This document shows, piece by piece, positions 1,006 to 57,921 of a stretch of DNA of 64,000 nt. This DNA comes from Dentipellis sp. KUC8613. Its lineage: Eukaryota; Basidiomycota; Agaricomycetes; Russulales; Hericiaceae. The notes under the pieces were generated by a model. That model saw only the letters and a program-made list of their open reading frames with translations. It made no database searches and was not told the DNA's origin. Each line of letters starts with the position of its first letter. The stretch's first letter is position 1. Position numbers and translations under genes: made by a program. The stretch is from contig NSJX01000065.1 in assembly GCA_002286715.1 (NCBI GenBank), positions 65,415-129,414 of the forward strand, read 5' to 3'.

Positions 1006-4000
1006 TCAACGCAACAGCGACCCGCGCGGCTTCCTCAACGTCTCCGCGATCGCCAAGAACGTCTCAGCAAGGTTGACCTGTCCACGAAAAGGAAACAAAG
1101 CACCACCACCGTCAGTTCCCGCTTCCCCAGTCCACGTTTCAACGAAAGAACCCACAGTGCTAAGGGCCTGGTGGAACGCTGACGGCGTATACGTCCTGCC
1201 ACTCTGGTCCACCGGCGCCTCGTTCTGCACCGCCAACGCGACCTGCGCCATCCTGCGCAACGAGCCCGACGCGCCGTCCGGGCCGAACGAGATGGTCTGC
1301 AGCGACAGCGGCTTCCTGCAGCGCAAACACGGACGTAGCTCCGTCAGCGCTCATCAAGAATGGCCGCACATTCATTGAAAAAACCGAGATCCACTGACCC
1401 GCGTCGCAGGGCAGCCCGGCAGAGCCCTTCCACAGCTGTGTCCCGGAGGGCGCACTGGCCGTCGGACAAGAAGATGACGATTGGGTTGCTAGCAGGGGTG
1501 GGGGGAATTGACATCCAACTTAGACACCGGGTACACGAGCGGACAACGATGCCTCTCACCGGTCGGCGTTCCAGTGGCCCTCCATGACGACGCGCGCGGC
1601 GTGCAGCGCCACAGCGAAATTGGTGCGCCCATACGCCCGCGTGTTCAGAATCGCGCTCAGGAGATCGTCCGGCGAACTCGTGGTGTCGTCCACGACGGGG
1701 ACGGTCGTGTTCTCGTCGAAGAACACGATGCTGTAGGCGTCCTGGCGGGCAGCAGGAGCGGCAGCGGGAGCGCCCTGCGTCGCGGCGGCGTTGCGGGCGG
1801 TCCAGAAGCTGTAGAGCGCCGAGAACACTGCGCCGAGTCGGTTGTTGCACGTCCGTCTTATGCGATCCGTGGCCGGCGCGTCTCGCAAAGGACGTCGGTC
1901 CTGGGAGGTCATAGATCCGGACCTGGTGAATGGACACGATTTTAGTTATCCACGCGCAAGCACGAAGCACCCACCTGTCAATGACAAAGATACTGCGAAA
2001 GCGGGTCTCATGAGCAGGAGCAACAGCATGCCTGGGTGAAGGTACATACACGTGCAGGGGGGCCGGCAGAAGGGCAGCCGGATTCTGGCAGGTAAAGTGG
2101 TGTCCGCCAATTGGTGAAACATACCCCACGTCAGGATGCCCATTTGCCTGAGCCGGATGGAACAGGGGAAGAGTGCAGTAAGACGGCTGAGTCGGGTTTG
2201 TCGCGTTGGCAGCGTGTTCGGAACCTATGCTCGAGCGTGACAGCAAGAGTTGAGCCTTCGCTCGTTCTATCTGTAGCAGAAGATTACCTGGACACATTGA
2301 GTCGCTGCCGCAGATCTCGAGTGTTAGCGTCGGGAGAGGGGGTAATGCCACAGGGAACACTCACCACTTCGCGAAATTCGTTTGCTCTTCTCGAGAGTAT
2401 GGATCTAGGGTGAATTCGCACTCAAGATCCACTCAATGGCTACTTGCAGATACCAAGTCCACAAACCTTTGAAGCCTAGAAAGTACGTGTCAGTATTGCG
2501 CTTGATGCATCATCAAAGGACAACCTCACCTGTCCGTCGCCAATACAACCCATGTGTGATGTAATCCTTCGACCTGTTTGGCTCCGGGAGAAATTGTTCA
2601 GAAATATGTTCCACCTCTGCACCCCCGCAGATTTCATCGGGTTCCGTGCGACACCAGTCAATGTGGACGTGTCTGCCCATCGAAGTGCATACCAGGTTGC
2701 ACATCATGGGGGCGCCATCGTCGTTTGTCGAGAACTTCCGCCCTTCATGTTCAACAGTGCCATCAGGGCTGTCAATTGCCCACCGAGCGTGGGCCATTGA
2801 GCCATGCGAGGTCTCGTGTTCTCGTTGGGTGTGGCCTAACGAAAATGAATTGGGAAATTGAGGAGGAATATAGACGCTCTACAGACCTAAGCGCAGCGTG
2901 CAGTAATAACCGCAGTGGTCACAGCTACTCGACAGTCAGTGTCGACCCTCGCCTTAGTCAAGACCATCGTGTCGACACGCACCGAGATTCGCAGAAATGA
3001 AAAGGGCTTTCTTCGGAACTGTGGCAATGAGATCCATCGTGCTCCGTTTGGTCTGGAGGTATCCGCTTGATACAGTCAAGGCGCTTTGCAGCTAGGAGAA
3101 TCTAGGTAAGGCAGTGTACAGAGCCGCGCAACGTGTTATTGGCTGACCTTGTGTGTACTTCGCAAACGCGTTTTTGTTAGTACATACTAGACGATTGAAA
3201 ACCACGAAGACTGAAATCCCTCACCTTCGTATATTGGAACGTCTCGTGTTTCCCGGTGAAAGTGGCCTCGATAGAATGAGGGTGCGTCTCAATTTGGCAT
3301 ATACCCGGGTCTGCACACAAGGCGTTGCACGAGTGTTCTTGGCTGCAATACTGGTCAGAACTCTCATTTCCATGTACGGACTAGAAACAACACACGGACC
3401 CGCATAAATGCTTGGCTCCCACCCCGAGCCCGTGCAAATGCTCCTCTTTGCAGAGCTGTTTGCAAAGCTGGCAAGTGACGGGACACAAGCGATCCTCGCA
3501 CTTGTGGATTGTGTGTTCTTCGTGACTGAAGGCATGTCGGTATACCCATAAAAAGTGACCAGAATGAGCAAAAACTTTACCTAGGGGTGCAGCAAAATCC
3601 AGGACACGACCATTTCTTCCCGTCGGGTAAGATGATTTCCGCAAGATCGCAAGGCTATACATGGGGTCCAAGATATCGTTCAAAGGAGGCAGGTGTGGGG
3701 ATAACGAAGGTTCTCTTACCTGGCCGCACATGTGGAGAGGCGCTGAACACATATGTATGTCGTCCTCATGGTTGAGAGCCTATAAGGAGCGGCCTTAGCA
3801 TTACACTCCAAACTGCGGAAAGCGAATCTTTCACCTTCGTACACACTTCCAAGCATCCCCGCTTGTCGCCCATTTTGCAAGATTCTCCACAGAGATGCGA
3901 CATAACTGTGCATCTTTGATGGTGAACGGGTTAAAAGCACGTAAAGGGTGACGCTGAGTGGAATACGTACACGTGCTTTCCGGGATGTCCAGCACTGTTG

Positions 4001-7000
4001 CGGCATTAGAATCATGAACGATAATTCAACTTCCAAACTTACGCCATGCCACAAGGTTTTTCGCCGCTGTCCTTGGCGCAGAAGCCGCAATCGTGGATAC
4101 ACTTGTGATTGGTCTTGCAGTTGTGTGCACCCTCATGAAGTCGCCCCTGGATACAGAGCAACTGGCACGAAGAGCACTGCGCTTTGCACAGTTGAACGCC
4201 GGCCTTTAGCTCGACGCAAGCATTATTGAACGCCCTTCGCAGGTCCTCGATGCTGGCATGACTTGCTTGAAATCTGGAAACGTTGACGGAGATCCATTCG
4301 CGAACGTGGTCGATGCGCATATCGACCAGAGTATTCAAGTGCGATGCAAAGTCTTGAAGCCAGTCGCTATCCGGTCGATATTGGCGAAGAGAAGTGCCTT
4401 CCCAACTTTCTTGCAACGCGACCAGCGTGGCCTCACGATTTGCCTCGTCGATTGTCCCTGGTACAAGTCCCATGATATTGAAGAGAGCGTCAGAATCAGA
4501 CTTCTCTATGAGGAGGTCTGTATCTAGATTCTAAGCCAAGACGTCAGGCGGCATGTCGCGAAGGATACGATAGAGGTAAAGTTACTTTCAAAGGCTCTGC
4601 ATCTGGCTGCATTTCAAACAGCCCGGCTTGCAAGGCATTCGGAAGGTGAGCAAGTAACGTCTGCGCTCGGTGCGCCGCCATTGTTTCTAAATCGCTTTGA
4701 GAGACGAGACATCCAGGTCAGGCTCTAGGGGACTTACGGGAAAGAGCGCCCCAATCATTCGCCTATGGGTCAGGTCAGCGAACTTCCGTGGTACATGGCT
4801 ATACATTCATACCTTGAGTTTAGCCATTAGCGTCTTCATCGTATGCAAGAATTCCCCTGCTGTGCGGTGTGTCGTCGGTTGATCGTCCAGAAGACTTCTG
4901 ACTTTCGAGAAGAAGAGATAAAACTTGGCAGATTCAATCACAGGCCAGGGAATAATCTTTAGATTTCCGTGGTGAAGACGTGTGATGAAGTTGGATTTTT
5001 GTTCTTCTTGTACAATTCTTTGGATCTTCAACGAAAACCTATATTTTTTGGTAGGCTGATTAACAACATACTTACAAGCCAAAAAGCCGAGCTTACTCTC
5101 GCGTGATATCCGATTTGTCCGTATCAACGACGTCCTTTTCATTGCCTGAGCACACAGTAGAGGCATAATGTAGTCCAGCGTACCTTAATAATAATGAGGA
5201 GTGTTGATTGGAACAATGTCGGGTTTGCCGCCGGATCGAGGATACTTGCGCTAGACTGGAAAGACTGGAAGAGGCCCGTGATGTCGCGGCTCAGGGCGAA
5301 ATTGTTACGGAACAGAACCTAGATCGCACTCAGTACTCCAAGAATCCGAGCGTGAGGCCACATACAAGATTTGATATCGCCGTGTTAAAGAGTACCAGGA
5401 ACGTGTCTTCTTGAGCGGATCGTTCAATGCTGTGAACACCTGCATTCTCTTCAAAATCGACTCGCCCAAATATTTCACAGTATCGCGAACCTTCGAAATC
5501 CAGTGCGACGATCAGATTTTTGGCAGTTGGCGTGACAGACAGCCAGACACCCTCTGCATAGTTACTTAAGTTCATTTTTCTCAATTCGCGAAGCAGATAC
5601 TGACCCGTAGTCCTCATGGCACTGCCAGCAAAAGACGTATCTGCAAGATGATTGAGCGCGAAGCTCTTCCCAACAGATTGCTCTCCCATCGAAGAAACGA
5701 CCTTAACGGGCTACAGAGGTAGCTCAGGATTGGAGTCACATATGTGGGTAGAATTTTCGCACCTTTGAAGCCAAATACGACTGGAAAATTGACTCGTACC
5801 AGCCGAAGGACAGTTTGTCCACGATCCTGCCAACGTCGGCCCCCAGCAGACTCCGCTCGAGGTCTCCAGACTTTACGCCGTCTTTCAGTGGTATAAATCT
5901 ATTTTCGCGGCATACGGCGATGTGAATTGGGATAAGACATAGGAGGCCTACGAGCCATTCTCCAACGCGTAGAGTGGAGGCGTTGATGAGGCCATCGAGG
6001 TCTGTTGGAAGTGATTCAGGAAGGGCGGAAATGATCTTCAGGTCGCTCAGCTCATTGCCGGTGGGCTTCCGTGTTTGCTTCTCGAAAGACTCGATCATGT
6101 GTTGAAAATAGGCAGGGAAAGGATAATCGTCGCGATCACTGACGAAGAGAAGGGCCTTCCGATGACGCAGAGGAGTTGTGGAGCTGAATCCATGTCCAAT
6201 TGCGGGCTGGACAGGAAAGCGTGTCCACATTTCCGCATGACAATCGATAAGGCAATTATGGACGGTAAGACGACTACCATGACGTCCTTTCTTATCGTTG
6301 CCTTTGGACTCTGTAAATGCGAATTCCGTGACGTTGCTTGTGATGTCCAAGACCGCAGACCTGCAACTGCTGGAGGCTATGTCGAGACCTAGTACGTGAA
6401 CGGTAGATCGGTTGACGAACGACGTTAGAACGACATCGTCGACAGGAAGATCGGGTAGGTCGAGGGTGATGCCGGCAGAAGAACCAAAGGTACTTGTGTG
6501 GTAGCCAGTCAAGGTCGATGCATTATCTTGAATGCTGAGCACGAGCAAGCAAGAACCATCCGGTGAGGACCAAACTTTTGCAGGGGAATTGTTGAGAAGT
6601 ACCGAAGCGGGTCTAGTAAATAGGTCACAACATGTGCTAGTTTCATTCAAGAGTATCGAAGGCAACATACCGAAACTGCCGCGTTACGAAGGAGTAGATT
6701 CGTGTGCGATGGTGATTGTCGACAAGCGCTATCTCATCGGTGCCTGACACGAAGCAAGCGTGTTGAATCTTGACTTGATCGCGAGAGCTGTACTCCGTAT
6801 ACCATTGAGTAAGATCGCCTTGGGTGGCAACAGCTTGTAATGTTCTGAAGGACTCGTCGAATGTATACAAGTGGAGTTGGAGCTGCATTATTGCTTTGTT
6901 AGTTGGTGACGCGACTCCATTCGAGAAATAGATCACCTTTGAAGTTCCACAGACGGCCAGGATACGCTTTGTTTCGTTGAATGCGAAGATAACACCATCG

Positions 7001-10000
7001 CCTATCTTCGACACATGAAATTTCTTCTTGTGTCTTCTCCTGTCGATTGAATGTTTGATGGTGGCCGTGTCCTCTAGGTAAATCTCAATTTCTTCATCAC
7101 TACCACGGCCAATAAGAATGACTAGCACGCGATTGCTTTCGAGAAGTTGTGTATGCCTAGAGGACAATGTCAAAATGACGCGAAAGGAAGAAAGCGGGAC
7201 TGACATGTTGGTGCATTGAGTAGGCACGTCAAATACAATTGCTTGCTTTGTATCTGCGATCGGTTTGGGGACAAAGTTAGAATTCAATTGCAATTCCTCT
7301 TTCTCGCCTGAAGGGAGGCTGAATGGGTAGATGGTACAGCGAAGTACGGGATCGTGGAGGTGATATTTTTTTCCAGTGAGCCAGTATACATCTGTGTGCC
7401 CTATGTCAGCTCGAGTAGACTAGATTTATGAAATATAAGTATGTAATACACCTCGACTTCGATGATAGGCATTGCCAATTTCGAGACGATCGATAGTAAC
7501 TTGCCTATTGTATGGATCAATAACCTGAATCTCCGGATCAACGCGCGGACTTACTGTCGAGCATGCACTGTAGACTCTTGGTTGACCTCTTTGATAAACG
7601 TTGAGCGCACCAAGGCCTTCGCTTGATCTTCCTCGTCCGCAATCTTCGACTGGAGTTGGCTTTGGCAATGGCCTAGCTGTATTGTGACGAGGCGATGGGG
7701 CAGTGAACGGAGCAGGAGAGAAATCTTGTCTTGAAGAACAGTTTCCGTAATCGTCTTGACCTTATTGACAAGAGCCTGCGAGGCAGTAGGATCTTTTGCA
7801 TGAAACTTGTTGAGGTCCCGAATGAATTTGGTGTCCTCGGTCGCACGTGCCAGTTTTTGAGCTTCCTCGACTATATGATCGCTTTCGGTGAGTAATCCAT
7901 CACCGAACTGCCATACCTTGCCAATGACCCGCTTTCCATATTTGCCCACCTTCTCCCACACGCCTGCGTTTTCTGTTGAGTCCTGATCGTCCTCCCCAGG
8001 AAGACTCTGAGCAAGAGCTGCTCTGATAAGGAATACATCTTTTGCTGCCAGGACGTTCTCTATCAATTCCAGGACTGCAGGGGCATCTAGGTCCCTAATT
8101 TGTACGAGGGCCAGTTCTATGACGAGAAATCGTAGTTTCACAGCCCGGAACTCTGGAGCGATGAGGTGATCGAACCCAGCATTGGTGAATGCCTCGACGA
8201 ATGATTGTTCCATGTCCTTATATCGCGAGAAAAGGCTCGTAAGGTAGTCTGTGTCATGAGAATTTATTCAGTGGCCGAAATAACTAGCATAGAAAAAACT
8301 GTTCACTTGATTCGTGAGGGTTTGTACCGTCAGCCTGAATGGAGCCTGGGGTTCCGAGAGAAAGACTCCTGTTCCAAGATACTGCATGAGACTCTTTATT
8401 GCGATCGAATGAAGAGGGGGCATGCGTACGGATACATCTGAGCGACACGAGCAATCATGGCTTCTCGTAGACTATCAGTGAGTTGAGGCACGGACTTCGA
8501 GACCTCGTCGTTCATGATTTTTCCCTCTGCATCCCGCTTTGCTTGAGAATCTGCTTCTATGCGCCGCATACCTTCTTTCCATGCTTTGGACTGTTCGTGC
8601 CATCGGCGACTTGGTCTCAACTTTATTATGGTGTCCAATGCGATGTCGTCCAATTTCTCGGAAAGTACAACGGATTCCACAGACCTATGTAACAAGCGAA
8701 ATTTATCAGCGTGAAACCGATCGAAAAGATTTTACATACAAGAGATTGCTCAGGTGGGTTTTATTGCATTCGGTGCCAGCGCTGAACGTTTCGACCGCGT
8801 ATGTGGATGGTGAGAATTCTACTGTCATGAAACCCTGTGAAGTTTCGCCTAACACCAGCTTTGGCTTGAACATGTCAACGGGAAAGGCTTGCTGTGCTGG
8901 CGGCTCTTTGCTTTTGATCCTGTTTGAGGTCAACTGATATAGAGATTGGTATCACACGATGCAACTGTACGAAACTCCTCTTACTATAAAACCAGGACGA
9001 GTAGTGACATTTTCCTCCTGTTCATTCGTCTCTGCGACCGTGAAGGTGAAGATTCTGTCATTGTCGGTGAAGTCTGATATATTGTCGATTGGTTCGTCAT
9101 CCTCTTCGAGCCACACGATGTCGCGAACACATTCAGCAGAGATAAGTGCAATATTCTGATCACATATCTTCGTGAGGTATCTGATCACCCCATAAGTATG
9201 TGTCCGCGCCCATAAACCAGCTACTTACCGAATGAATGTCACTCTGTTGCGTGCCACGGCCGAAACAGCAGCATCATCCCAGGTCGTGGGCTCGGGCCAG
9301 TAAACGACGTAGATCTTGTTTTCCGTATCAGAGAACTCCGGCGGCTTCACGAAATATAGCCCTGAGCTCAAAGTCGGCTCGGATACGCCGGATAGGTCAT
9401 CTTCTGGTCGGCATAGCTTGCTTTTTCTAGTTGCTTCAAGTAAGTCATTGGGATCCTCAGCCAATCAGGTGTAAAGCTTACATAGCGTTGTCGATAGCTC
9501 CGATTGATACAAGAAACTTTGCGATTTCCTCCCTGATGCCATAAACTCCGACGGGTCGTACACTCAGCTTGTCAAGCGCCTTGAAGTTAACTTTTGTCAA
9601 GGACGTATAAGCGCCGGGATGCAGGGTCTCGACGAAATCTCGAAGGGAATCCTGGCAAATGACGATCTTCGCCACTGGTTTCCCATAAAGTAAGGCTATA
9701 CCTAACTCGCTAATGAAAAAGGCTGCCCACCTTGGCCACCACTTCCCTGATCGCTGATAAGATCCAGGACTCGGTATATCCCAGGCATCTTCTTCACCAA
9801 GTCCATATCGTCTGCATAGGAGATCTGTGTGGGCGTAGATATTTCTTGTGTTGCTTGGCTGTCAGGTATGTTGAGTTCTTCGAGACGTTGTGTGAGTGAA
9901 TCGTGAAACTGCTGATCGATTTCCGTTTTTGCATCACTCTGCATACGAGAACTGGTCAATACAACGAAGATCATCTATATGATGGATGCTACCTGAATGT

Positions 10001-10449
10001 TGGGGACTACTTCGATACCGGGAGCCATTTGTGTACTAGTTACATCGACTTCGCGTCTGGAAGGCGGCATGGAGACATAAGCATCTGAGTCAGAGTCGGT
10101 ATCAGAAGGGGTGTGTTTCTCCTTTGAGCCAAGTGATTCATTATATCCCTGTGCTTCCTTGAGGACCAGCCTGGGTAGCACAGAAATACGCGAACGGCGT
10201 ACCACGGGAGCTCGATCGGAGGTATCGACGCCATGTTCGAGATCGGGTACTATACAGGGCAACACAATTGAGACTGCCTTCTTATCCCAGATGATTGTAC
10301 GCACCATCAACAGATATTGAGACAGTTTCTTCATCTTGATGCCCACCGCCTCCGGTATCTGGACCTAGTATCATTAGCCGTGATAACTACTTACGTCTGA
10401 TACTGATAGATTGTAAGGAATTACCTCCAGCATGGTCATCCGCGTTCAT
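1006..10449 (-). CDS. Giant VLIG/GBP-like GTPase with Cys/His-rich region and VWA domain, copy A (many introns)
   Basis: The start is a 25-nt first coding exon (10425-10449) followed by an exon encoding an acidic segment ending near ISVDG; the same layout in copies B and C supports it. Order from the N terminus: Ser/Asp-rich linker with the motif MPPSR (about 10100-9700), conserved region GVYGIREEIAKFL (9675-9225), Glu-rich and helical regions (9188-7560), a beta-rich section (7500-5740), then a GTPase with P-loop GEQSVGKS (5663-5686) and G3 motif DFEG (5489-5500). A helical stretch with HVREWISVNVSRFQ (4473-4160) leads into many Cys/His clusters (about 4160-2513). The C-terminal VWA domain has a MIDAS DRSGSM split by an intron, and FLSDG near 1450-1475; the protein ends KPRGSLLR. 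I found no frame break that an intron does not explain. The G domain resembles the animal very large inducible GTPases and GBPs; function is unknown, and an immune-like or membrane-remodelling role is inference only. Confidence 0.85.
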
Positions 10450-11474: not shown

Positions 11475-14400
11475 TCAGCGAAGTAACGAGCCGCGCGGTT
11501 TCCTCATTGTCTCTGCAATTGCCAGGAATGTCTCCGCCAGACGAACCTTTCGAGCAAAAAGGTGAACGACAGCAACGAGAAGGACATGCTGGGGCACACT
11601 TACGGTATCAATGGCCTCGTGGAAAGAAGACGGGGTAGATCGATGACCATTTGGGTCTGGCAACGCTTGGTTTTGTACATCCAGAGCGAGTTCTGCCATA
11701 CTCCGTAGAGTATCTGTCGCCGTTTGCTGACCAAACGAGATTGTTTGGATAGAAAGCGGTTTTCTGACGGGAATATTCGTGAGCACATACGAATATTTTC
11801 GGCTCAAATTTGAACAACTGACCCTCTTTGCGCAGCATCCTGGCACATCGCATCAACCGTGTTACTGAGGGTGTCATCATTGAACCAACTTTCGCCATCG
11901 GACAGAAATATAACAATGGTATCGCTGATGGAGTTTCTGTCAGAGAACGAAAGTTCACCCTCGGGGCTTACTTACCGATCATCACGCCAATTATTTACCA
12001 TAACGGCTTGAGCACACTGTATCGCCGCAGAGAAACTTGTCGCCCCAGAAGGCTCCGTGTCCAAAACCATGCCGAGTAGTTCATCGGGGGAACTAGTGAC
12101 ATCGTCTGCGAGCGACGTATATGCGTTATGATCGAAAAAGATGACACTATAAGCATCGCGGCGAGCTGGTGCATGAGTGATTCCTTGGCGCGCGGCGTTG
12201 AGAGTCACAGCTGCCTGGCGAGCTGTCCAAAAGCTATAGAGTGCGGAAAAGACTGCCCCGAGTCTGTTGTCACACCTTCTGGCGATGCGATTTGTGGCTG
12301 GAGCATCCGGTAGCGGGCGCCGATCCTGTTCGGTCATAGATCCCGATCTAAGGAAATGATATTCAATCTGAAGGATGAGCGAAGTGATCAATCAAGCATA
12401 CTTATCGACAACAAAAATCCTAGAGAATGATATGGGGGTAAGGCCCAGGTTCCTTCGAGACAAAGGAACACATACACATGGAACGGCGGCGGGAGTGCGA
12501 AAGCTGGGTTTTGACAAGTGAAATGATGCCCGCCAATCGCCGAGACGTATCCTGGGCCGTTGGCGGCGAGCACCATGTGTTGGTTAGCATGAGCAGAGTG
12601 GAACAGCGGCAGGGTACAGAAGGAAGGTTGCGCAGGATTTGTCGCGGTCGCGGAGTGCTCGGGACCTAGTTGCACAGCAAGCATGTTATATCAGTATTCT
12701 CTAATCGTTTATTTAATCGTTCGTGTCACCTGCACACATTGTATCGCTGCCGGTCGTCGAACATGAGCACCAGGAAAATCTAGAGTGAAAAGAGCTCACC
12801 AGCTTGCAAAGTTCGTTTGTTCTTCTCTGGAGTATGGATCTGCAACAGACGGAATTTAAATCGAGATGCATCAGTAAATGGTATCACGCATCGACCCACC
12901 TTTGAAACCTGCACGGGCTGTTTAGTTGTTCAATCTACTCGTCAAGAAAAATCGTGCTCACCCGTTCGCCGCCAATATAACCCATGCGTGATATAGTCCT
13001 TGGGTCTCCCAGGCTCCGGCAAGAATGGCTGGAATATGTGCTCCATCTCGGCACCTTCACAATTTTCATCAGCCTCCGTACGGCACCAGTCAATATGCAC
13101 ATGTCTGCCAAGCGAAGTGCAGACAAGGTTACACATCATGGGTGCGCCATCGTCATTTGTCGAAAACTTGCGGCCTTCATGCTCGATACTCGTACCGTCG
13201 GGCCCATCTATCGCCCACCGCGCCCGCGACATGGATCCGTGTGAAGTCTCATGTTCTCGTTGCGTGTGACCTAGTGTAAGATGAGACTCAGCGCACGAGC
13301 ACGAAGATCAAACACTAACCGAGCGGTAGCGTGCAATAATATCCGCAATGGTCGCATCTATATTTTCTGTAAGCGGTCAATGTTCGACAGTGGGAGATGC
13401 CACGGACGCACCGTGACTCGCAAAAATGGAATGGCCGCGGTTCTGAACTGTGACAATGAGGACCTCGATGCTCTGTTTGATCAGGAGGAATACGCTTGAT
13501 GCAATCGAGACGTCTTGCGGCTGGTAAATGGTGGATGAGACAAGGGAACATGACCATTTCACACACGATGACCGACCTTGTGTGTACTAAAAAGTCTTGT
13601 GAACAAGTTTCAGGATATTCAATTAGATAAAGCACACACCTTCGTGTACTGGAAAGTCTCGTGTTTGCCAGTAAAGGTAGCCTCAATGGAGTGAGGGTGT
13701 GTCTCAATTTGACATATGCCTGCGTCTGCACACAGAGCGTTACACGAATGCTCTTGGCTACATCATTCGTTAGCAGGATCCTTTGTAGGATTGATTCAGT
13801 AAGACGGACCCGCAAAGATGATTTTGCCCTTCTTCAAGCCCGTGCAAGTGCTCGTGTCTGCAAAGTTGTTTGCAGAGTTGACAAGCAACCGGACACAGCC
13901 GGTCATCGCATTTGTGGATTGTGTGTTCTTCGTGGCTATAATGTCATGAATAAGTATTTCACATGGCGATAACGCAATGAAAGCGGACCTGGGAACACAG
14001 CAAGTTCCAGCACATGACCATCTCTTTCCACTGGGGAGCAGAATATCTGCAAGATCACAGGGCTGTATACATGTTCCGGGTTGAGATCAAGCATCCAGAC
14101 GGAGATCGATTTTGTTACCTTTCCGCACATATGGAGAGGTGCCGAGCACATATGAACACCGTCGACATGACCCAATGCCTGAGAGTTATCGTGTCAGTAT
14201 CGACCGTTCTCTGCAACAACTCTGTTACTGACCTTTGTGCACTCCCCCATGCAGCCTTGCTTGTCTCGAAGCTTACAGGGATCGCCGCAGAGATGCGACG
14301 TTATATTACATCTGGGACGGTGAAACATGAACGAGGAAGAACGACGCCTTAAGAGAGGTTTTGCAAACACTTACACGTGTTTTCCTGGATGTCCAGCGCT

Positions 14401-17400: not shown

Positions 17401-20400
17401 AGAATCCCATCGCCAATTTTCTCCGTATGAAACTTCTTTTTGGCCTTTCCCTTGCTAATAGCGCTGTTGATGGAAGCCGGATCCTCCAGGTATATCTCAA
17501 CCTCTCCCATACCATCACGAGTGATGAGTATTACAAGCACTCGGTTGTTCTCGAGGAACTGTACATGTCTGAGAATCCAAAGACGTAAGAAACGATATGA
17601 TAGGGAACGCGGGATGCATGACTCACCTGACGACGCAATGAGTGCGTATCTCGAATTCAATAGCTTGTTTCGCATCTGCGATTGGCTTCGGAACAAACTT
17701 GCGGTCCAGTTGTAACTCATGTCTTTCCTCCGTCGACAAGCTAAACGGGAATATATTGCAACGAATCACGGGCTCGTGGAGGAAGTACTGGCAGCCAGAG
17801 ATTCGGTAAGTATCTATAAGCCACGGATGAGTTGGGATGATGACGCAGCAACAGTTGTAGTTACCCAGATGGTAGATGCGTCTGACCTCGAGATGCTCGA
17901 AATGGATCCGTCTGAGCGAAAGATCAGAACGATAGTGGCTCTTCAAATTAGAGACTTACACTGGAGCTGAAGGCGGAGCCTCGCTGTTCACCCCGTTGAT
18001 GAAAGCAGTACGCAAAAGTGACTTGGCACGCGCTTTCTCGCCGGCAAGTTCGAGCTTCAGCTGCTTCTTGCAAGTCACGTCCTGTATTGCCAGGATGCGA
18101 TGAGGCAGCCGTTTAAGAATAGAGGATATTCTTGATCGAAGAACATCCGCTGCAACGCTCTTGATTTTTGCAACGAAGGATTGCAATGTTCTATTGTCGG
18201 CAGGGAATGTCTCGAGATCGATGAGGAACTTAGCGTCGACAGTGTCTTGCACAAGGGTCTTTGCGTCCTGAACTAGATCGCGATTGCGGGCTGATTGAGG
18301 TTCGTTAGACCCCGCTAGATAACCCCAGACCTTCTGTTGAACTTTAGTCAACAAACCGGCATTCTCCTCCGCACTTGGAGTGCGACTAGCTGAAGGTTTC
18401 GAAGAGATCGCTTCACGTATCTTGTCTTCTGTACTTGCGCGAAGAATCCTTCTAAGGAGCTCGTCGACACCAGAGGAGGCCAGAGCTTCGTCTTTGAGGG
18501 CGAGCTGTATAACGGCGAATTGCAGCTTTAGACGCCGGAACTCCGCGTTGTTCAGCTTCTCGAAATCAGCTTTGTTCAACTCGTCATTGTAAAGCTGCTG
18601 CATGCCGCTGTACATTGTGAAAAGGTTCGTGATGTACTCTGCAAGACATTGTGTCAACGCCAGGACGAAATAGCTCGAAGGATGCCGTTACCTTGTGCAC
18701 CATGGGTCGGAGTATCTGCAGGCATAGGGCCAAGTGAAGAAGGAGAAAGAGTGCTACAGAAAAGCGACTCATTAATACAAGGATCCCATTCACATTACGA
18801 AGATACTCGTACGTACGGGTAAATGCGAGCAACATGCTTGATTACGGCTTCTCGCAAACTTTCTTCTAGCTGACGCAGGCTGCCATCGAGTTGTTCTTTC
18901 AGATTTCGCTGCCTGTCTTCCGACTGCATTTGAAACCTTTTCTCCAAGTCCGAGTTTCCTGTCGCCCTCTCGACACATTGCGGGAGCCAGCGACCTTTGG
19001 GCTTTAGCTTCGTGATGATGTCCAACGCCTCATCGTCCAACGACTCGGAAAGAGTTACACACTCGACGCTCCTTCAGTCGTGAGGGTGATGAGCCGCAGG
19101 GAACAGAAGTATTGCAAAGATAGGACTGACAGTAGGTCACGAAGGTGGGTCACATAAAATTCGCGTCTTATATCAAACACCTCGGTTGTTGTTTCGGGAG
19201 GTGAGAACTTCATCACCATGAACCCTTGCGAGGTTTCACCCTGTATCAACTTCGGCTTGAACATATCAATGTCAAGCGAGTCGGATCCCTCGGGCAATCT
19301 ATGGGCTCTTATGTACTTCGAAGTCAACTGTCACAAACATGTGTCAGTGCTTCATAAAGAAAGCGATTGAATGATAATCTGCTACCGTAAAACCAGGATG
19401 AACAGTGATGTTTTCCTCTTGTTCGTTCATTGTTTCGACTTCAAAGGTGAAGACCCTGTCGGTGCTCGTGACGTTGGGCATTGCCACAGTTGATGTATCA
19501 CCTTGGCCGTGCCATACAATGGTGCGAGCGCATTCAGCAGATATAAGCGCGACATTTTGGTCGCACAACTTTGTCAGGTACCTACCCGCCTTATGAGTAT
19601 ACATTAACCACTCGCAGTACAATCACCTACCTCATGAACGTCACTCGATTACGCGCCACCGCGGATACAGCAGAATCGTCCCATGTCGTTGACTCAGGCC
19701 AATAGACAACATAGATCTTGTTTTCCGTGGCGGAGAACTCGGGAGGCTTGACGAAATACAACCCTGATCTAAGGACGGGCTCGGAAACGGACGACAAGTC
19801 ATCTTCGGGCCGGCACATCCTGCTCATGCTAAGAAACAGAATAAACATTGACATGCGGCTCGGAATAGAAACTTGGCAGAACTCACATGTTCTCGTCAAT
19901 GGCACCAATCGACACCAGAAACCCTGCTATCTCCTCTCTGATCCCATATATCCCAACGGGCCGTACGTTCAACTTATCAAGAGCCTTGAAATCGACCTTG
20001 GTTAGCGATGTATAAGCTCCGGGGTACATGGATTCGACGAAGTCTCGTAAAGAGTCTTGGGAAATGACGATCTTGGCGACTACTTTCCGGGTCAGGTGAT
20101 ATCCAGCATTCTTGATACTAGAGAATGCCTACCAAGGCCTCCACTGCCTTGATCGCTGATGAGATCGAGGATACGATAAACACCTGGCATCATTTTCACG
20201 AGATCCATGTCGCTCGTATATGATATCTGAGTAGGCGTGGCTGCCAAGTCGCGGGCTTCTTGCATGTCCATGTCCTGATTCGCGGGCGTTTCTAAAGCCC
20301 TGAGACGTTGTGCGAGCGACTCGGGCAGACTCTGCACGTTGCTCGTCTCCGTAGTCATCTCTATATCAGGTAGCATTTCGGGGCCAGATGCCGTGGGGAT

Positions 20401-20784
20401 GCTCTGGCCATCCGCCTCACCTCGAGACGGTGGCAATGACATGAAGACATCAGAGTCGGTGTCAGAGTCAATGCTGCTCTGATTCTGAACAGCACGGTTC
20501 ATCTCACAGTCCAGGAAGAGGAGAAAGTAGCTAGAACTCACTGTGGAATCCTGGTTGTGGGTATCGACTTCAGTATCGGGTTCTGGCATTGAAATGACTT
20601 CGTTAAGAAGGTTCACGACGCACGACGTGAGACAACTGCTCGCACCATCAATGCTTATCATCGCAGTGTCTTCATCGTGATAGCCTTCAAGTCGGCCGCC
20701 TATTCCTGTCGCCGTCAGCTCAAGTCGCAGCTACAACGGCTCAGGCTGGAACAAAGGCACACCTGGATCGGCGGAACTTGTCAT
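11475..20784 (-). CDS. Giant VLIG/GBP-like GTPase with Cys/His-rich region and VWA domain, copy B (many introns)
   Basis: The start is a 22-nt first coding exon (20763-20784, MTSSADP) spliced to an exon encoding GYHDEDTAMISIDG. Domain order matches copy A: Ser/Asp-rich segment with SDVFMSLPPSRGE and ISYTSDMDLVKMMPGVYR (20661-20100), conserved region with YVVYWPESTTWDDSAVSAVA (about 19627-19780), Glu-rich and helical regions (19622-17956), beta-rich section (17946-16168), GTPase with P-loop GEQSVGKS (16087-16110), helical stretch (15155-14600), Cys/His-rich region including CKAQCSTCQLLC and HKCIHDCGFC (14590-12942), and a VWA domain with MIDAS DKSGSM assembled across an intron (about 12335-12410) and FLSDGES. 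It ends KPRGSLLR like copy A. Splicing leaves no premature stop that I can see. It lies head-to-tail with copies A and C, so the array grew by tandem duplication. Molecular role unknown. Confidence 0.85.
16087..16110 (-). other. GTPase P-loop (G1) of copy B
   Basis: Encodes GEQSVGKS, a Walker A of the form GxxxxGKS. The eight residues are identical in copy A (5663-5686) and copy C (26165-26188), and the downstream FALNHLADTSFAGSAMRTT is also invariant. This fits a dynamin/GBP/VLIG-like G domain and argues that all copies still bind nucleotide. Confidence 0.85.
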
Positions 20785-21550: not shown

Positions 21551-24500
21551 TCATAGAACAGCGACGGGAAGCAACGAGCCTCGTGGCTTCCTCAATGTCT
21601 CTGCGATTGCTAAGAATGTCTCTGCAAGATTGACCTTTGAAAGTATGAGTATGACTACCATTCACCCTGTATACAGGGCAGACTCCAGCGCTGGGGACTC
21701 ACGGTACTGAGGGCCTCGTGAAAAGCCGAGGGAGTAGACGGACGGCCATTCGGGTCAGGCGGAACCTCGTTCTGGATCTCTAAAGCGACTTGCGCCATTC
21801 TCTGCAGCGTTCCAGAGGACATGCGAGGCCCAAATGAGATTGTCTGCAGGGACATTGGTTTCCTGCGACATTCACGCTCAGATTGAATTTCCGTCCAAAG
21901 AAGTGTCAATTTGGCGCCAACCTTCGTTGCAGAGCAAACCGGCACAAGGCTTCAACGGTGCGATTGTTGACTCTGCATTCGCCATCAGACAAGAAGATCA
22001 CGATAGGATCCCTAGAAAAGACGCCATTCTCAAAAACTGCTCATAATGGTGTTGTACAGACCTGCTTACCGCTCGTCGTTCCAGTTCCTCTCCACAACAG
22101 CCTGAGCCCCCTGCAGTGCCGCAGTGAAATTAGTACCTCTAGAACTCCTCGTTTGTAAAAGTATATCCAGAAGCTCCGCAGGAGAGCTAGTAACGTCGTC
22201 CTCGATGGGAATGGTCGTGTTACTATCGAAAAACACGACGCTGTATGCATCTCGGCGAGCAGGGGGAGGTGCGCCTCTTGCTCGTGCTCCGCCCTGGGCT
22301 GTGGCAGCGGCACGAGCGGTCCAGAAGCTATAAAGTGCGGAATATACCGCGCCGAGCCGGTTATTGCAGTATCGAGCAATGCGATTCGTGGCTGGTGCAT
22401 CTGGCAAGGGCCGACGATCTCGATAAGTCATTGAACTGGACCTGTTGTACGAAATTGAGAAACAAAGTTCGGCTGGTATCCGGCAGCAAACGTACCTATC
22501 AATAACAAAGACCCTATAGCGACCACAGAGTAAGCAAGTAGAGCCGTTCACATGCATATATGTACCTACACATGGAATGGCGCTGGTAGCATGACGGCCG
22601 GATTCTGGCAAGAGAAATGGTGCCCGTCGGTTGCTGAGAAATATCCTAGACCGCCAACCAGAGCGTCTGCTTCGGGGACATGGAGTGGATGGAATAGCGG
22701 AAGGGTGCAGTATGAAGGCTGTGCAGGGTTCGTCTCGGTTGCAGAGTGTTCAGGACCTGGTTAGAAATTAAAAAGTTCACACATGTCGATAAGAAGGAAG
22801 AAATAGTTTTGAAAACACCAGTCACTTACCTGGGCACATAGTATCACTTTTGGAACCCAGAATTAGCGATGAGTGATGTTGTTGATCGAGCATACTCACC
22901 ATTTTGCGAAATTTGTACGTTCCTCTCGAGAGTAAGGATCTATAGTGAAAGTCGTGTCAAAATCGTAGAACTTTACCAGTATGATTCAACCGACCTTTGA
23001 AGCCTGGAAGTGATGGTCGAATCCTGCGTAAGTTTACGTCTTTCGGTAAGATTCTGCTCACCCTTTCGTCGCCAATACAGTTCATGTGTAATGAAATCCT
23101 TCGCCCGGTCAGGGTCCGGCTGCATCCTCCGAGAGATGTGTTCTACATCTGTGCCTTCGCAAGGTTGCCCGGCCTCCGTGCGGCACCAGTCAATATGAAC
23201 GTGTCTTCCAAGTGAAGCGCACACGAGATTGCACATCATAGGTGCGCCGTCATCATTGGTCGAGAACCTGCGTCCTTCATGTTCGATAATTGTATCATCT
23301 GTGCCATCTATCGCCCAACGAGCGCGTGACATCGAGCCATGAGATGTCTCATGCTCTGGCTGTGCATGGCCTGACGCGGACTGTTCAGCAGCACTTATAC
23401 TATTCAAATTACAACACTGACCTAGGGGCAGCGTGCAGTAATACCCACAGTGGTCGCAGCTACCCATTCGTCAATACCTATTACTGTGAAAGAAGGGATA
23501 TACGCGTACCGGATCTCACAGAAATGGAATCGGTGTGCTTCTGAGCTATGTGAATGAGAGCCGTCGTGTTCTGTTTGATCAGGAGGGATACTTTTGACGC
23601 AGTCGAGCCGTCTTGCGACTAGTACACCATGAGTGAGTGAAGTTTGTACTCTTGTGGCGCGCATCGGCTAACCTTGTGTGTACTTCAAAAACGGTCAGTC
23701 AGAGCGTCACTAGTCGTTTCCACAAAAAGCTCACCTTTGTGTATTGAAATGTCTCATGATTGCCTGTAAAAGTGGCCTCAATGGAATGAGGGTGTGTCTC
23801 AATTTGACATACGCCTGGGTCAGCACACAATGCACTACACGAGTGCTCTTGACTATGACCCTTGTCAAAGAAACACGTAACAAAAAGAAACAGATGAACG
23901 GACCCGCAGAGATGCTTTGCCCCTGCTTCAAGCCCGTGTAAATGATCTTCTTTGCATAGCTGCTGGCAAAGTTGACACGTTATGGGGCACAGTCGGTCCT
24001 CACACTTGTGAATTGTATGTTCCTCGTGACTAAGTATACGGATAAGCGACCACCCAGAGAGGGTATGTACAGAAGGTTTACCTGGGAACACAGCACAGGC
24101 CGGGGCATGACCATCTCTTTCCGTCAGGTAATATGATCCCCGCAAGATCGCAGGGCTATACACAATTTTCGGATTGTCAAGAAGAATACCCGCAAAAAAA
24201 AACGGCATTGTTACCTCGCCGCACATGTGGAGGGGTGCGGAACACATATGCGTGCCATCTTCATGGTTTAACGGCTGCAGTAGACCAACTTAGTATCGCA
24301 TTTGACTAGAAGAGTCATTAATGTTACCTTTATACATTCTTCCATACATCCTTCCTTGTCGCGAAGCTCACAAGGTTCCCCGCAGAGGTGCCAAGTAACT
24401 GCACATCTTTTATCATATGATCTCAGCCGGAGAGCAGTATGTGTAGAAGAATCACTTACACATGCTTCCCCGGGTGTCCGGCACTGTAGCGTCGTCAGGA

Positions 24501-27500
24501 TACATGACTAACGTTGTACGAGCTCAAGCAAAACATACACCATGCCGCAGGGCTTTTCTATACCATCCTTGGCACAGAAGCCACAGTCGTGTATGCACTT
24601 GTGAGTCGTTTTGCAATCATGCGGGCCTTCGTGAAGGCGACCTTGAACGCAGAAAAGCTGGCATGTGGCGCACTGGGCTTTACACAATTTCACGCTAGCT
24701 TTTAACTCTACGCAGGCATTGTTGAAGGTCCTTCGTAGGTCCTCGATACTAGCATGACCCGTTTGAAATCGAGCCACATTGACAGAAATCCACTCGCGAA
24801 CGCGATCAATTCGGAGATCAACCAGAGAATCTAGATGCAATATCAGCTCATGAAGCCATTCACCATCGGGTTTGTGCTGGCGGAGAGAAGCGCCATGCCA
24901 TTCCGTTCGAAGCGTGACCAGGGCAACATCACGATCACTGAGTGAGCCTAGTGACCCTTCGACGAAGAACATAGCGTCTGAATCCGGCTTCTCCGTAGGG
25001 AGGTCTGTATCCAGATTCTAATGGAGATATTACTACCCGTCTTGGCAGGAGGTTAAATGATAAGACTCGCCTTCAAATGCTCTGCATCCGGGTGTATTTC
25101 AAATAGTCCGGCTTGCAGGGCATTGGGCAGATGAGCTAGTAACGTCTGAGCCCGGTGCGCTGCCATTGTTTCTACACACATTGACTTAACGGCAGACTCC
25201 AGAGTAGACTCAGACGGGCTTACGAGATAGGGCGCCCCAGTCATTTGCCTATACAAATGCACGATAAGTGACGACGATTCTTGCATGTAAGTTCATGCAT
25301 ACTTTAAGCTTAGCCATTAGGGTCTTCATCATGTGAAGAAACTCTCCCGCCGCATGATGCGTTGTGGGCTGCTTGTCCAAGAGTGTTCTTACCGTGTGGA
25401 ATAAACGGTAAAACTCGGCAGACTCGATCACAGGCCACGGGATGATATTTAGTTTTCCAGCATGAAGACGAGATATGAAATTTGCGTCTCGCTCTTCATG
25501 AACAATCTTCTGGAATTTCAAGGAAAATCTGTGTGAATCCTCGATCAGCTACCAAATTACACTCAAGACATGCGGATACTCACTCTCGCGTGATGTCTGA
25601 TTTATCCGTGTCGACAACGTCCTTTTTGAAGGTGAATCAGAGTGATACAGAAACGGGATATTGCTCCAACTCACCTTGATAATAATGAGGAGCGTAGATT
25701 GGAACAAAGATGGATTTGCCGCAGGATCAAGGATGTTCGCGCTGGATTGAAACGACTGAAAAAGGCCCGTGATGTCACGGCTCAGAGCAAAGTTATTGCG
25801 GAACAGGACCTGGTCGACAATGTTCAAGACTCCAAAAACCTGAGCACAAAGCCACATACAAGATTCGAAATCGCCGTGTTGAAGAGTACCAGGAACGTGT
25901 CTTCTTGAGCAGATCGTTCTATGCTGTGGACACCTGCATTACTTTCAGGCTCCGGTTCATCTGAGATTCTGTATACCCCGTTCTATAACGAACCTTCAAA
26001 ATCCAGTGCGACGATCAGATTTTTGGCAGTTGGCGTGACAGACAGCCAGACTCCCTCTAACAAGTTGCTTCAGGTCAGCCGCTCGATGAGCAAAGAAAAT
26101 ACTGACCAGTAGTCCTCATGGCACTTCCGGCGAAGGAGGTATCTGCGAGATGATTAAGCGCGAAGCTCTTCCCAACAGACTGCTCCCCCATCGAGGAAAC
26201 GACCTTGACGGGCTATATAGATAGCTCAACATTGAGGTTACATGAATAGACGGAATTCTCTCACCTTCGAGGCCAAATACGACTGGAAGATTGATTCGTA
26301 CCAGCCGAAAGATAGATGATCTACGATTCGGGTAACATCAGCCCCTAGCAGGCTTCGCTCAAGGTCTCCAGAGTATCTCCCATCCTTCAGTGGTATAAAC
26401 CTGTTCTCCCGACAGACAGCGATGTGGATGGGTATAAGGCAGAGGAGGCCCACAAGCCATTCACCCATTGGGAAGATGGATACGTCCAGATTACCGTCAA
26501 GGCTCGCAGCGAGTGCTTCCGGTAGTGTTGAGACGATTTTCAAGTTACTGAGTTCACTCCCTGTGGGTTTTCGCGTCCGCTTCTGGAAGAATTCGACCAT
26601 ACGCTGGAAATAGGGGGCGAGTGGGTAATCTTCCCGATCACAGACGAAGACAAGGGCTTTCTGACGGCGTGAGGTACTAGGAGAGAGGATGCTGTGCCCG
26701 ATTGCGGACTGCACTGGAAACCGAGTCCACATTTCGGCGTGGCAGTCAATAAGGCAGTTGTGCGCCGTTTGACAATCTTCGTGGCCTCCGTCGGCACCCT
26801 TGCCTCCATACTCTGTAAACATAAACTCCGTGATATTACTTGTTATGTCCAGCGCCACAGACTTGCACGTATGCGAAGATGCATCAAGGCCTAGCACGTG
26901 GACTGAGGACCGGTTGACGAAAGCTGTGAGAGCAAAATCGTCACTGGGAAGGTCGGAGATGTCGAGCTTGATGCCAGCGGATGAACCAAAGGTACTTGTA
27001 TGATAGCCTGTTAGGGTCAAAATCGATCCTTCCTTGGTGAGCAGCATAAGGCAAGAGCCATCTGGTGACGACCAAACTTTCACAGGAAGGCGCTGTAACT
27101 GTACGGAGGCGGGCCTAGAATAGAGTTATTGTGTGCACTTACGAAAGTGAAATGTGGTAACTGACCGAAACTGAAGCGTTACAAATGAGTATACCCGAGC
27201 CCGAAGATGACCATCGACAAGCAGTATCTCTTCGGTTCCAGAAACGAAGCACGCATTGGTGATCGTGGCCTTATCTGGGTACTCGGCGTACCATGGCTCA
27301 AGATCCGCTTGAGTTGCAACCTTCTGCAACACTTGAAAGGATTCGTCGAAAGCATATAGATGGAGTTTGAGCTGTATGAGAGAAATTTTGTCAAACATAC
27401 GAGGCCGATAAGACTGGTCGAAGTCACCTTGATAGACCCGCAGACGGCAAGGATACGCTTGGACTCATCAAAGGCGAAGAGAGGATCTTCCCCGATCTTT

Positions 27501-30500
27501 GAAACATGGAACATTTTCTTGTACCTCCTATTCGCAATGGCGCCGCTGACGGTCGCCGAACTTTCAAGATATATCTCGACCTCTCCGGTGCCATCTTCGG
27601 TAACAAGTATGAGCAACAGCCGATCGCTCTCAAGAAGTTGTACATGCCTAAGAAACAAAAATATCCTGAGCACACGCGATGATCCACAAAAGTTACAACG
27701 TACGCGATCATACGCTGGGTAGGCATCTCAAAGCGAATGGCTTGGTTCTTATCAACGACTGGTTTCGGGATAAACTTGGGATTAAGTTGCAATTCATGTT
27801 TATCTCCAGCGGATAAACCAAATGGATAGATAGTGCAAAGGATGACGGGATCATGAAAGATACGCAGGCATCCATCGAGTCGATACCGAACTGTGAAAGT
27901 CTCTGTGAGATCCAGAGCGACAAGTGTTTGCTTCAACTGGCACTATCTACAAACCTGGGCCATACTTCGACTGAATACACTCGAGATGATTGATCCCAGC
28001 TTGTCTATAAAAATGTTAGTGGGCAATGAGGTCTTTTGTCTCGAAAACGTACGTCCGAGCACCAGCCACTTCAGCAGATTCTCGATTTAACTCCTTGATG
28101 ACCCGAGAGCGTAGGTCCTCCATGGCTGCTCTCTGTGCATTCATCACCTCTGCGAACTTTTGGGACTTGCAGTGCATTTGCTGAATGTCCAAGAGACGGT
28201 GAGGCAGTGTCTTGAGGATGTTCCGGATCTTCGTTCGAAGATTATCTGCTGCAGCAGTCTTAACTTTTGCAACAAGAACTTGCAGGATTTCATCATCCAA
28301 GTGAAAATTTTCAAGGTCAGAGATGAATTTGGCATCCTTGGTCTCGTGTACTAGAGTCTTGGCCTCCCGTAATGGGTCATAATCTTGGGAACTCGATCTT
28401 TCGCCAGACCCTGTCAAGGAATTCCAAAATTTCCTGGCGGCAGCCTTGAAAACACCTGACTCCTCGTCTGTGTTAGCAGGTAGTCCCATGTGAATAATAT
28501 GTCGAATTTCGTTTTCATCCTTCGCCGAAATTATCCTCTCCAGTAGCCCATGTATGTCACCGGAGTCATCCAAGCCTTTGTGCCTGAGTATGAGATGCAC
28601 AACAACAAACTGTAGCTTCGAGTGACGAAACGCAGGATTTTTCAAGACTTCAAAATTGACCTTCTTGATCTCTTCATCATATAGTTCCTGCAGGCCGCTA
28701 TACAGAAGGCATAAATTTCTGACGAGCTCTGCAGATCTAGTCAGTTGCTGGCTGAAAGTACGGTACGCTGGATGGCGCGAATACCTGGGCCACTGTCAAC
28801 CGTCATATTTGAAGATGGGTCCGATGGAAAAGGAAGCGTCCTAGGTGATAGATGAGTATGTACCGTTCCAAAGTACTATGGTTACACACGGATAGAGACT
28901 TCGGATACGCTCAATGGCATCCTCTTGTAAGCTGTGCTGTAACTGAGGCAGGGTAGCATTGAGTTGCTCTGCGATGCGCGCTTGCTCTTCGTCCGCATGT
29001 AGTCGATACTTCTTCTCGATGTCCGAACGACCTGAGACCCACACCTTGACTGCATCGTCCCATCGACCGGGAGGTTTTAGATTCGAAATGATGTCCAATG
29101 CGCCATTGTCTAGTGCGTTGGAGAGGAACACGGATTGACATTTTCTAAATTACAAGACAATCAGTATAGCCAAACAGACAATGAACGGGACAGATGCACT
29201 GACAATAGGTCAGCAAGGTGAGTTGGATAAAATTCATGGCTTCCGTTAAAATCCTCGACTGTTGCCTTGATGGGTGAGAATCGCGCGGTCAAAAAGCCTT
29301 GCGAAGTTTCTCCTCGTACCAAATTCGGCAAAAATACTCCTGGATTCCGAGCGGACCTCTCAAGCGGTTCAGCCACCCTGAAGTATTTGCTGGGAAGCTA
29401 GTATACAAAATATAAGTGTCAGAGAAGACGATGTCAAGTAAAACTCTCCTCCTTACCACGAAACCGGGGCGAGCTGTGATGTTTTCCTCCTGTTCGTTCA
29501 TCTTCGCAACCTCGAAAGTGAAGAGCCTATCGGTGTCTGCGACCTCGGATGTCTCGAGCACCGAATCGGCATCTTCTCCTTGCCACACAATAGCGCGGGC
29601 GCACTCAGAAGACATAAACGCAATTGTTTGATCACACAGTTTCGTCAAGTATCTGAAAATCCAGTAAGTATATTGCGGCCAGTCACAAGAGCCACTTACC
29701 GAATAAACGTTACTCGGTTGCGCGCCACAGCCGAGACAGCAGAATCATCCCAAGTTGTTGGCTCAGGCCAGTGGACGACGTAAATTGTATTGTCCACGCC
29801 AGAGAACCCAGGCGGCTTGATGAAATATAGGCCAGAACTTAGCGTCGGTTCAGAGACACCAGAGAGGTCATCCTCCGGCCGGCATAGCTTCCTTTTTCTA
29901 ATCGCAATCAGTCAGTCACTGCGCTGCATCACTAGTTAGCTCAGGATAAGCTTACATTGCCTCATCGACGACCCCGATCGACAAAAGAAACTTTGCGATT
30001 TCTTCTCTTATTCCATAGACCCCGACAGGGCGACAGTTCAACTTGTCGAGTGCCTTGAAGTCTACCTTGGTTAATGAAGTATAGGCCCCCGGGTGCAGAG
30101 CCTCGACGAAATCTCGGAGAGATTCTTGTGAGATGACGATCTTCGCCACTAGTTCCGCATTTAGCTACCATTCGCTCTGGGTGGCACGATAGAGACTACC
30201 TACCTAGTCCACCACTTCCTTGATCACTGATCAGATCTAAGATGCGGTACGTCCCTGCCATCCGGTTGACTAGATCCATGTCGTTTGTATACGATATCCA
30301 TGTAGGCGTGGATGCTGGATCGCGAGTTTCTTGTATCTCCGCATCCTGATTGACAGGTATTCTGAGATCCTTGAGACGATCGGCAAGGCTTTCGGAAAGC
30401 CGATGTTCGTCGTTCCCGTCGTTGTTCGTTTTTGTGTCAGGTTCAGCCTGTTCACCGGACGTCGATTGCATGTTGGACGTATCCAACTCGCCCCTAGACG

Positions 30501-30852
30501 GTGGGAGGGACATATAGAGCTCCGAATCCGAATCCGAATCTGATCGGTCCAGATGGCTATTTCCCTGCTGATGACGACGGTCAATTATAGGGAGAGAAGC
30601 GAAAAAGACAGTGCTTACCATAGATGCCTCATCACATGCATCTTTCGCTCCTTCATGCTCTAGTGCTGCAACGACCAGTCAGAGCCACGTCATATATCGG
30701 ACGAAGTTTTGTACCGTCAATGCTTATCATGATCGTGTCCTCGTCGTGGTAGCCCCCGTCACCTGGATCCATAGCCATCAGTCACCATGATAACCACTGG
30801 GCCGAGCGAGATCAGACGATGACCCACCTGAAGTAGCATAACTTGAATCCAT
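21551..30852 (-). CDS. Giant VLIG/GBP-like GTPase with Cys/His-rich region and VWA domain, copy C (many introns)
   Basis: The start is a 25-nt first coding exon (30828-30852, MDSSYATS) spliced to an exon encoding GYHDEDTIMISIDG. The layout repeats that of copies A and B: SDSELYMSLPPSRGELD segment (30621-30196), GVYGIREEIAKFL region (30149-29700), Glu-rich and helical regions (29648-28016), beta-rich section (27936-26238), GTPase with P-loop GEQSVGKS (26165-26188), helical stretch with DRVREWISVNVARFQ (24972-24700), Cys/His-rich region (24700-22973) and a VWA domain with MIDAS DRSSSM (exons either side of about 22440-22500). The C terminus differs: after KPRGSLL it runs on to PVAVL instead of ending at R, because the stop codon has shifted. 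Reading frames appear intact. Role unknown; the family relationship is clear from the two neighbouring copies. Confidence 0.85.
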
Positions 30853-56294: not shown

Positions 56295-56394
56295 CGATGT
56301 CGGGACGTCGGGACACTTGTGTCCAGACGTCATGGCATCGTGACGCAAGACGTCCCGGTGACACGATATCATGTCACAAGCTACCCCGACATCG
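56295..56394. repeat. Nested inverted repeats
   Basis: An outer pair cgatgtcggg (56295-56304) and cccgacatcg (56385-56394) encloses GGACACttGTGTCC (56311-56324), direct copies of gacgtc, and GTGACA...TGTCAC (56358-56377). The unit could fold into hairpins on a single strand. It sits at the border of the G-rich tract. Confidence 0.6.
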
Positions 56395-56399
56395 AGACA

Positions 56400-57590: not shown

Positions 57591-57921
57591 AAATATACTA
57601 GTGCACTCTAAGGCGAGACGCCGGACCACCCTCATTAATGTAGTAGAGAAAGCGAAGAAAGAACAGTCTTACGGTTGTCTTGGCCACAATGATGCTCACA
57701 CATGTGCGAAATTTCATAATTTGGGCTTCGAACTATGAAGTGAAGGCTTCAGACGGTGCAAGAAAAGGATTATTACAGGCTGTACGCTAGCTTGACGAAC
57801 CTAGAAGAATAAAAGTGTCAGCGGATGCTACGAGGAGAAGTTTTCGAAATATTACGCACCCTCCGATCCGAGAAACGCCTTTGAAAGATCAATGCAAAAA
57901 CAGTACAGACTACTCGCGCCA

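Follow-up and report, generated by a model that had tools for sequence, protein, structure and literature searches.

The first 31 kb of a 64,000-nt window from Dentipellis sp. KUC8613 (a mushroom-former in the order Russulales; assembly GCA_002286715.1, contig NSJX01000065.1, positions 65,415-129,414, forward strand) hold three genes for giant GTPases, named g1, g2 and g3 and placed head-to-tail on the minus strand. A self-comparison of the window, i.e. of the whole stretch of DNA analysed, reveals three collinear copies within its first 34 kb. Gene models were derived from codon use and mutual support among the copies, then from protein-to-genome alignment with g3 as the template. Their spliced reading frames are uninterrupted from start to stop, and the spacers, calculated by subtraction, measure 766 bp between g1 and g2 and 1025 bp between g2 and g3: the three full-length paralogues of 9.3-9.4 kb described in the initial annotation, lying on one strand with 0.8-1.0 kb between them, are thus borne out.

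All introns are of the GT-AG type, except for three GC-AG. In 39 of them both position and phase are identical across the three genes, with the reservation that the g1 and g2 models were built on g3 as template. Each model contains micro-exons of 9, 10, 17, 18 and 25 nt (in g1 at 22995-23003, 23673-23682, 22830-22846, 22496-22513 and 25224-25248, respectively), which gene callers easily overlook; the residues of the 10-nt one are absent from the public protein P0004. Compared with our models, P0001 starts 171 bp upstream of g1, P0002 ends short of the modelled end of the von Willebrand factor A (VWA) domain of g2, and P0004 is without the first exons of g3. Some internal exon ends disagree as well, chiefly in the N-terminal tail, where a stretch kept in our models is spliced out in P0001 and P0002, and in a few places in P0004. 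In the whole assembly (34.1 Mb, 171 contigs; 20 of 27 candidates scored) no copies were found beyond the array: the 68 exon matches to P0001 all lie at contig positions 66423-96437.

Domain architecture of the three proteins

In each protein, an N-domain and a predicted β-propeller, the latter probably split by a helical insert, lie in front of the G domain. Behind it come a helical domain, a Cys/His-rich region and a VWA domain that carries a metal-ion-dependent adhesion site (MIDAS). Predicted structures are AlphaFold2 (AF2) models of homologues, one of them P0247, whose domains were then mapped onto g1-g3. To our knowledge, this set of domains is not met in other known proteins.

Table. Genes, predicted domains and one stretch of raised silent-site identity in the array (window positions).
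Feature	Position	Strand	Product or residues	Basis or remark
g1, giant GTPase gene	21551..30852	-	2334 aa	9302 bp, 43 exons; public DENSPDRAFT_933970 (P0001)
g1 N-domain, alpha/beta	29585..30279	-	aa 156-334	conservation; AF2 model of homologue P0247; mapped
g1 propeller, first strands	29232-29546	-	probably aa 347-432	AF2 models of homologues
g1 helical insert, least conserved ordered part among the three copies	27985..29143	-	aa 442-777	AF2 model; mapped
g1 beta-propeller, main part	26798..27888	-	aa 792-1101	AF2 models of homologues; fold matches; mapped
g1 G domain	25236..26465	-	aa 1212-1497	Pfam, motifs (GEQSVGKS, RTTEGVW, DFEG, IIKDV), fold
g1 helical domain after G, GBP/atlastin-like	24696..25227	-	aa 1500-1642	AF2 model; fold match; mapped
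g1 Cys/His-rich region	22610..24684	-	aa 1646-2081	alignment; mapped
g1 VWA domain with MIDAS	21828..22577	-	aa 2092-2266	Pfam VWA_2 1.8e-10; motifs; mapped
g2, giant GTPase gene	11475..20784	-	2327 aa	9310 bp, 43 exons; public DENSPDRAFT_625472 (P0002)
g2 N-domain	19514..20208	-		mapped
g2 helical insert	17892..19070	-		mapped
g2 beta-propeller, main part	16722..17811	-		mapped
g2 G domain	15156..16389	-		mapped
g2 helical domain after G	14606..15147	-		mapped
g2 Cys/His-rich region	12516..14594	-		mapped
g2 VWA domain	11729..12483	-		mapped
g3, giant GTPase gene	1006..10449	-	2338 aa	9444 bp, 44 exons; public DENSPDRAFT_787266 (P0004)
g3 N-domain	9113..9806	-		mapped
g3 helical insert	7485..8683	-		mapped
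g3 beta-propeller, main part	6296..7389	-		mapped
g3 G domain	4750..5963	-		mapped
g3 helical domain after G	4200..4741	-		mapped
g3 Cys/His-rich region	2090..4188	-		mapped
g3 VWA domain	1281..2057	-		mapped
g1-g3 four-fold excess, near P-loop exons	about 25870-26200 (g1), about 5380-5700 (g3)	-		exon table arithmetic

Two Pfam families exceed their cut-offs in g1, scored on a 2331-aa model that became 2334 aa in its final version: VWA_2 (41.9 bits, cut-off 27) and GBP (E 8.1e-5; 22.4 bits, cut-off 21.1). RHD3_GTPase (E 2.3e-8; 34.2 bits, cut-off 42.4) and URGCP_GTPase (E 0.0082; 15.3 bits, cut-off 55) stay under theirs. Over 23 broad family members, surveyed at E up to 0.5, URGCP_GTPase (best 1.1e-11), RHD3_GTPase and GBP are each found in 21, and VWA_2 in 18; the remaining five (P0134, P0170, P0186, P0195 and P0200) probably end before the VWA domain, judged from their match ends. 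Motifs were counted in the 113 proteins of at least 1900 aa among the 120 homologues listed. The G motifs are invariant with two exceptions: a single protein deviates at one G2 residue, and one G1 position is E (95) or Q (18). The MIDAS residues (DxSxS, T, D) are conserved in 98 (D), 110 (S), 110 (S), 98 (T) and 109 (D) of these proteins, and in the alignment they are complete in g1, g2 and g3. Searched as a single sequence against PDB sequences, the VWA piece returns no VWA entry; a profile that includes it returns one (E 0.0047). Given the Pfam matches and the conservation of both sets of motifs, the order read in the initial annotation, i.e. GTPase, Cys/His-rich region and MIDAS-containing VWA, is to be considered real, far beyond chance.

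Fold searches with the AF2 models of homologues match the G domain and the helical domain behind it to GBP1, and the propeller to the WD40-type fold; neither for g1 nor for the 23 members does the Pfam list include a WD40 profile. For the N-domain, no Pfam family occurs in more than one of 20 members (best besides VWA: Regnase_1_C, 0.0047; VWA_3, 0.0015). Its PDB sequence search gives no notable match, the best (E 0.13) covering profile positions apparently outside the N-domain. Structure searches with the P0247 model return mostly propellers and some phage fibre, so that the fold of the N-domain is hidden rather than shown to be absent. The Cys/His-rich region is probably zinc-binding; the 16 Pfam families seen in the 23 members include none for it, be it RING, NFX1 or another zinc family, and a match of one exon open reading frame (ORF) to Phage_zn_bind_8 (0.042) is under cut-off. 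By hydropathy, g1-g3 have a single hydrophobic stretch, located where the G domain begins. Neither a transmembrane hairpin, by the same measure, nor a CaaX-type end is present, and the proteins are probably soluble.

A fungal family with old and diverged copies

A first protein search, with 951 g1 residues as query (E<=1e-3), yielded 640 matches from 4168 candidates, of which the best 120 were listed. Organism names accompany 115 of these, under 65 labels that we take to be Agaricomycetes throughout. Most of the listed homologues are full-length. With g1's own entry set aside, the Agaricomycete 'VWFA domain-containing' hypothetical proteins among them are 57-80% identical to g1 over the 951 residues (g2 80%, g3 77%): they belong to the same family and do not differ in kind, the Dentipellis genes being the copies that a single lineage has. 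Imleria badia has at least 7 matches, Lactarius quietus at least 5, and four further labels at least 4 each. Several same-species matches lie on equal-sized contigs, for instance three of L. quietus on 288,815 bases, which may point to gene clusters. Mushroom-forming fungi commonly have proteins of this kind, often more than one per species.

A second search was restricted to shorter proteins (221 matches, best 120 listed, 11 of them with PF25683 precomputed). Among the matches listed, it adds Rhizoctonia, Tulasnella, Ceratobasidium and Serendipita, as well as the Glomeromycotina Rhizophagus, Funneliformis, Cetraspora and Dentiscutata and a single chytrid, Rhizoclosmatium hyalinum, in whose protein the N-domain is linked to the back part of the G domain and the Cys/His region. 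The N-terminal half, used as query in a third search, yielded 19 matches. No Ascomycota are found among the matches listed in these three length-filtered searches; their absence is therefore not shown. A viral or prokaryotic origin was also considered, and no relative was confirmed from 235 viral_contigs and 129 genome_contigs pattern matches at the sensitivity used. In a limited literature search, nothing on these fungal GTPases turned up in the portions of the sources available, from which we do not claim their absence from print. We assign g1-g3 to a family of giant fungal GTPases of the GBP class that is as yet uncharacterised.

The FastTree phylogeny (130 sequences, 878 columns) broadly tracks the fungal groups, with some weak nodes and exceptions such as Coniophora beside Sparassis (0.74). 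Five Dentipellis proteins form one clade with support 1.0, with g1 outermost. Within it, g3 pairs with EVG20_g2356 and g2 with EVG20_g2357 of D. fragilis, whose gene numbers are consecutive, like the neighbouring g3 and g2; since each has its own partner, the triplication is older than the split of the two species. No D. fragilis partner of g1 is found among the matches listed, be it through loss, an assembly gap or the limit of the list. Among the 28 labels that have at least two tips, 9 show a clade made up of that label only, the largest being one of Imleria badia (5); copy number is therefore partly recent, with much of it older than the species.

Overall, g1, g2 and g3 are mutually 65-67% identical. 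Their four-fold degenerate sites are 36-41% identical, as expected of old copies, and their G domains 88-95%, a difference that points to purifying selection on the G domain. Gene conversion as the general cause of the near-identical G domains is rejected: in two of the three pairs, four-fold sites there are no less diverged than elsewhere (33/97 for g1-g2, 33/91 for g2-g3). For g1-g3 the figure is 54/97, and identical four-fold sites are locally in excess within g1 aa 1285-1355 (29/40; P 0.0036 by permutation, uncorrected for the number of pairs), which may at most reflect a small conversion tract of old date. Between the Dentipellis species the G domain reaches 0.99 and 1.00; for g3 and D. 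fragilis P0003, the lowest value (0.65) falls on the helical insert.

Possible function and its rivals

With GBPs (GBP1, 2 and 5) the three proteins share a Pfam domain and the predicted G plus helical fold. Contrary to GBPs, they are about four times longer (GBP1 chains have about 590 residues), carry the N-domain, propeller and helical insert before the G domain, and have no CaaX-type end; the C-terminal middle/effector helical domains of GBPs are replaced, in that the Cys/His region and then the VWA come after the helical domain. Their G4 motif is IIKD in 113/113 homologues, not the RD of GBPs and atlastins. This KD and the replaced C-terminal domains keep them out of the GBPs proper. The size class (>2000 aa) is that of the very large inducible GTPases (VLIG/GVIN) and URGCP, and some homologues bear the UniRef name 'VLIG-type G domain-containing'. 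The vertebrate VLIG coding region is one giant exon, and we know of no propeller, Cys/His region or VWA in VLIGs; with a g1 profile score below cut-off, though most members match the profile, and with a multi-exon gene, g1-g3 are not classed there either. Nor are they atlastins, since the two membrane segments that follow the helical bundle in atlastin/Sey1/RHD3 are missing. RNF112, which combines a RING with a GTPase, and SMG8/SMG9 are much smaller. The interpretation given in the initial annotation is supported in part. In working, g1-g3 would resemble a GBP or VLIG, and they are classed as neither.

Atlastins dimerise upon GTP binding and hydrolysis seems to favour disassembly, and GBPs are termed scaffold members of the dynamin superfamily (PMC8565484). 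By analogy with both, GTP binding in g1-g3 would pair the G domains and hydrolysis would shift the helical domain behind them, a movement that, from the anatomy, may assemble the protein. Recognition could then fall to the surface of the propeller and the fast-evolving helical insert, and the Cys/His-VWA tail could act in a metal-dependent manner, as a module for docking or as an effector. We tentatively favour, while granting it somewhat less than an even chance, that g1-g3 are soluble, GTP-switched giant scaffolds of the GBP/atlastin structural class with a surveillance role, because a GBP-type motor sits between a recognition-type front and a Cys/His plus VWA back. Hypothetically, they would survey the cell interior for non-self or damaged structures, working like a GBP or VLIG, several diverged copies being retained for different ligands. 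The defence role raised in the initial annotation is reasonable and unproven.

It is also conceivable, if unlikely, that these proteins form a machine for membrane or organelle dynamics, an atlastin/Sey1- or dynamin-like GTPase in vesicle, endoplasmic reticulum or vacuole traffic with propeller and VWA as adaptors; the missing hairpin and CaaX-type end argue against it, as do the several copies in many species. A quality-control enzyme or complex, ubiquitin-ligase-like or nucleic-acid-binding through its Cys/His region and switched by the G domain (compare RNF112 and SMG8/SMG9), has a similarly small chance, in view of the zinc families missing from the Pfam survey and the sub-threshold Phage_zn_bind_8 match. 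High divergence of the tandem copies outside the G domain, and again the several copies per species, would suit a self/non-self or mating-compatibility protein of hyphal fusion, whose copies mark individuals or lineages. Recognition alleles are usually variable within species, and the one-to-one pairing of g2 and g3 with D. fragilis proteins makes this reading quite improbable.

Several points weigh against the surveillance scaffold. The relative placing of domains in the AF2 models is uncertain (predicted template modelling scores of 0.53 and 0.40), and several GBP and atlastin entries superpose over both G and helical domains only at a root-mean-square deviation of 17-19. The KD of G4 departs from both groups. 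The copies are old, purifying selection acts on their G domain, and the one-to-one pairs would fit stable specialised functions no less than an arms race. Between g2 and D. fragilis P0005 the helical insert scores 0.77, next to 0.76 for the Cys/His region (51 gap columns), the latter perhaps a gene-model fault. The insert may also be fast through weak constraint alone. Finally, blastn detects no common promoter element or sequence in the regions upstream of the three genes.

A wider version of the surveillance reading is doubtful: a fungus-wide family of cell-autonomous immune GTPases that would correspond to the GBPs and VLIGs of animals and be older than the point at which chytrids, Glomeromycotina and Agaricomycetes parted. 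Its G domain would be a frozen motor, its diverging, propeller-inserted helical domain would read non-self, its Cys-rich and MIDAS-VWA tail would execute, and it would have multiplied independently in mushroom-forming fungi.

Neighbourhood and significance

The genes beside the array look like unrelated neighbours: ORFs on the minus strand for SPX (32489-33673; 8.1e-5, below cut-off), WD40 (37745-38386; 9.5e-10), an APH/choline-kinase-like protein (47818-48753; 1.7e-9) and RING (53712-54728; zf-RING_2 5.8e-6, just under cut-off, zf-C3HC4 over it), all by Pfam. Also present are a DUF7770 ORF (46737-47336, plus strand; 5.9e-23) and two DUF6540-like ORFs some 0.7 kb apart (49415-49882, minus, 1.8e-5; 50613-51125, plus, 3.1e-4; both below cut-off). 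Positions 56001-58000 are GC-rich (60.5%), with GC and AT skews of about +0.2 each.

The protein classes known to underlie innate immunity and the sensing of non-self in fungi are few. With its GBP-type engine, deep fungal conservation and several diverged copies, this family of giant GTPases is a concrete candidate for such a role. It offers experimental handles: the conserved motor, through GTP-pocket mutants; the variable insert, through paralogue swaps; and a three-gene locus removable as a block. If the immune role were true, it would bear on whether immunity of the GBP/VLIG type predates animals.
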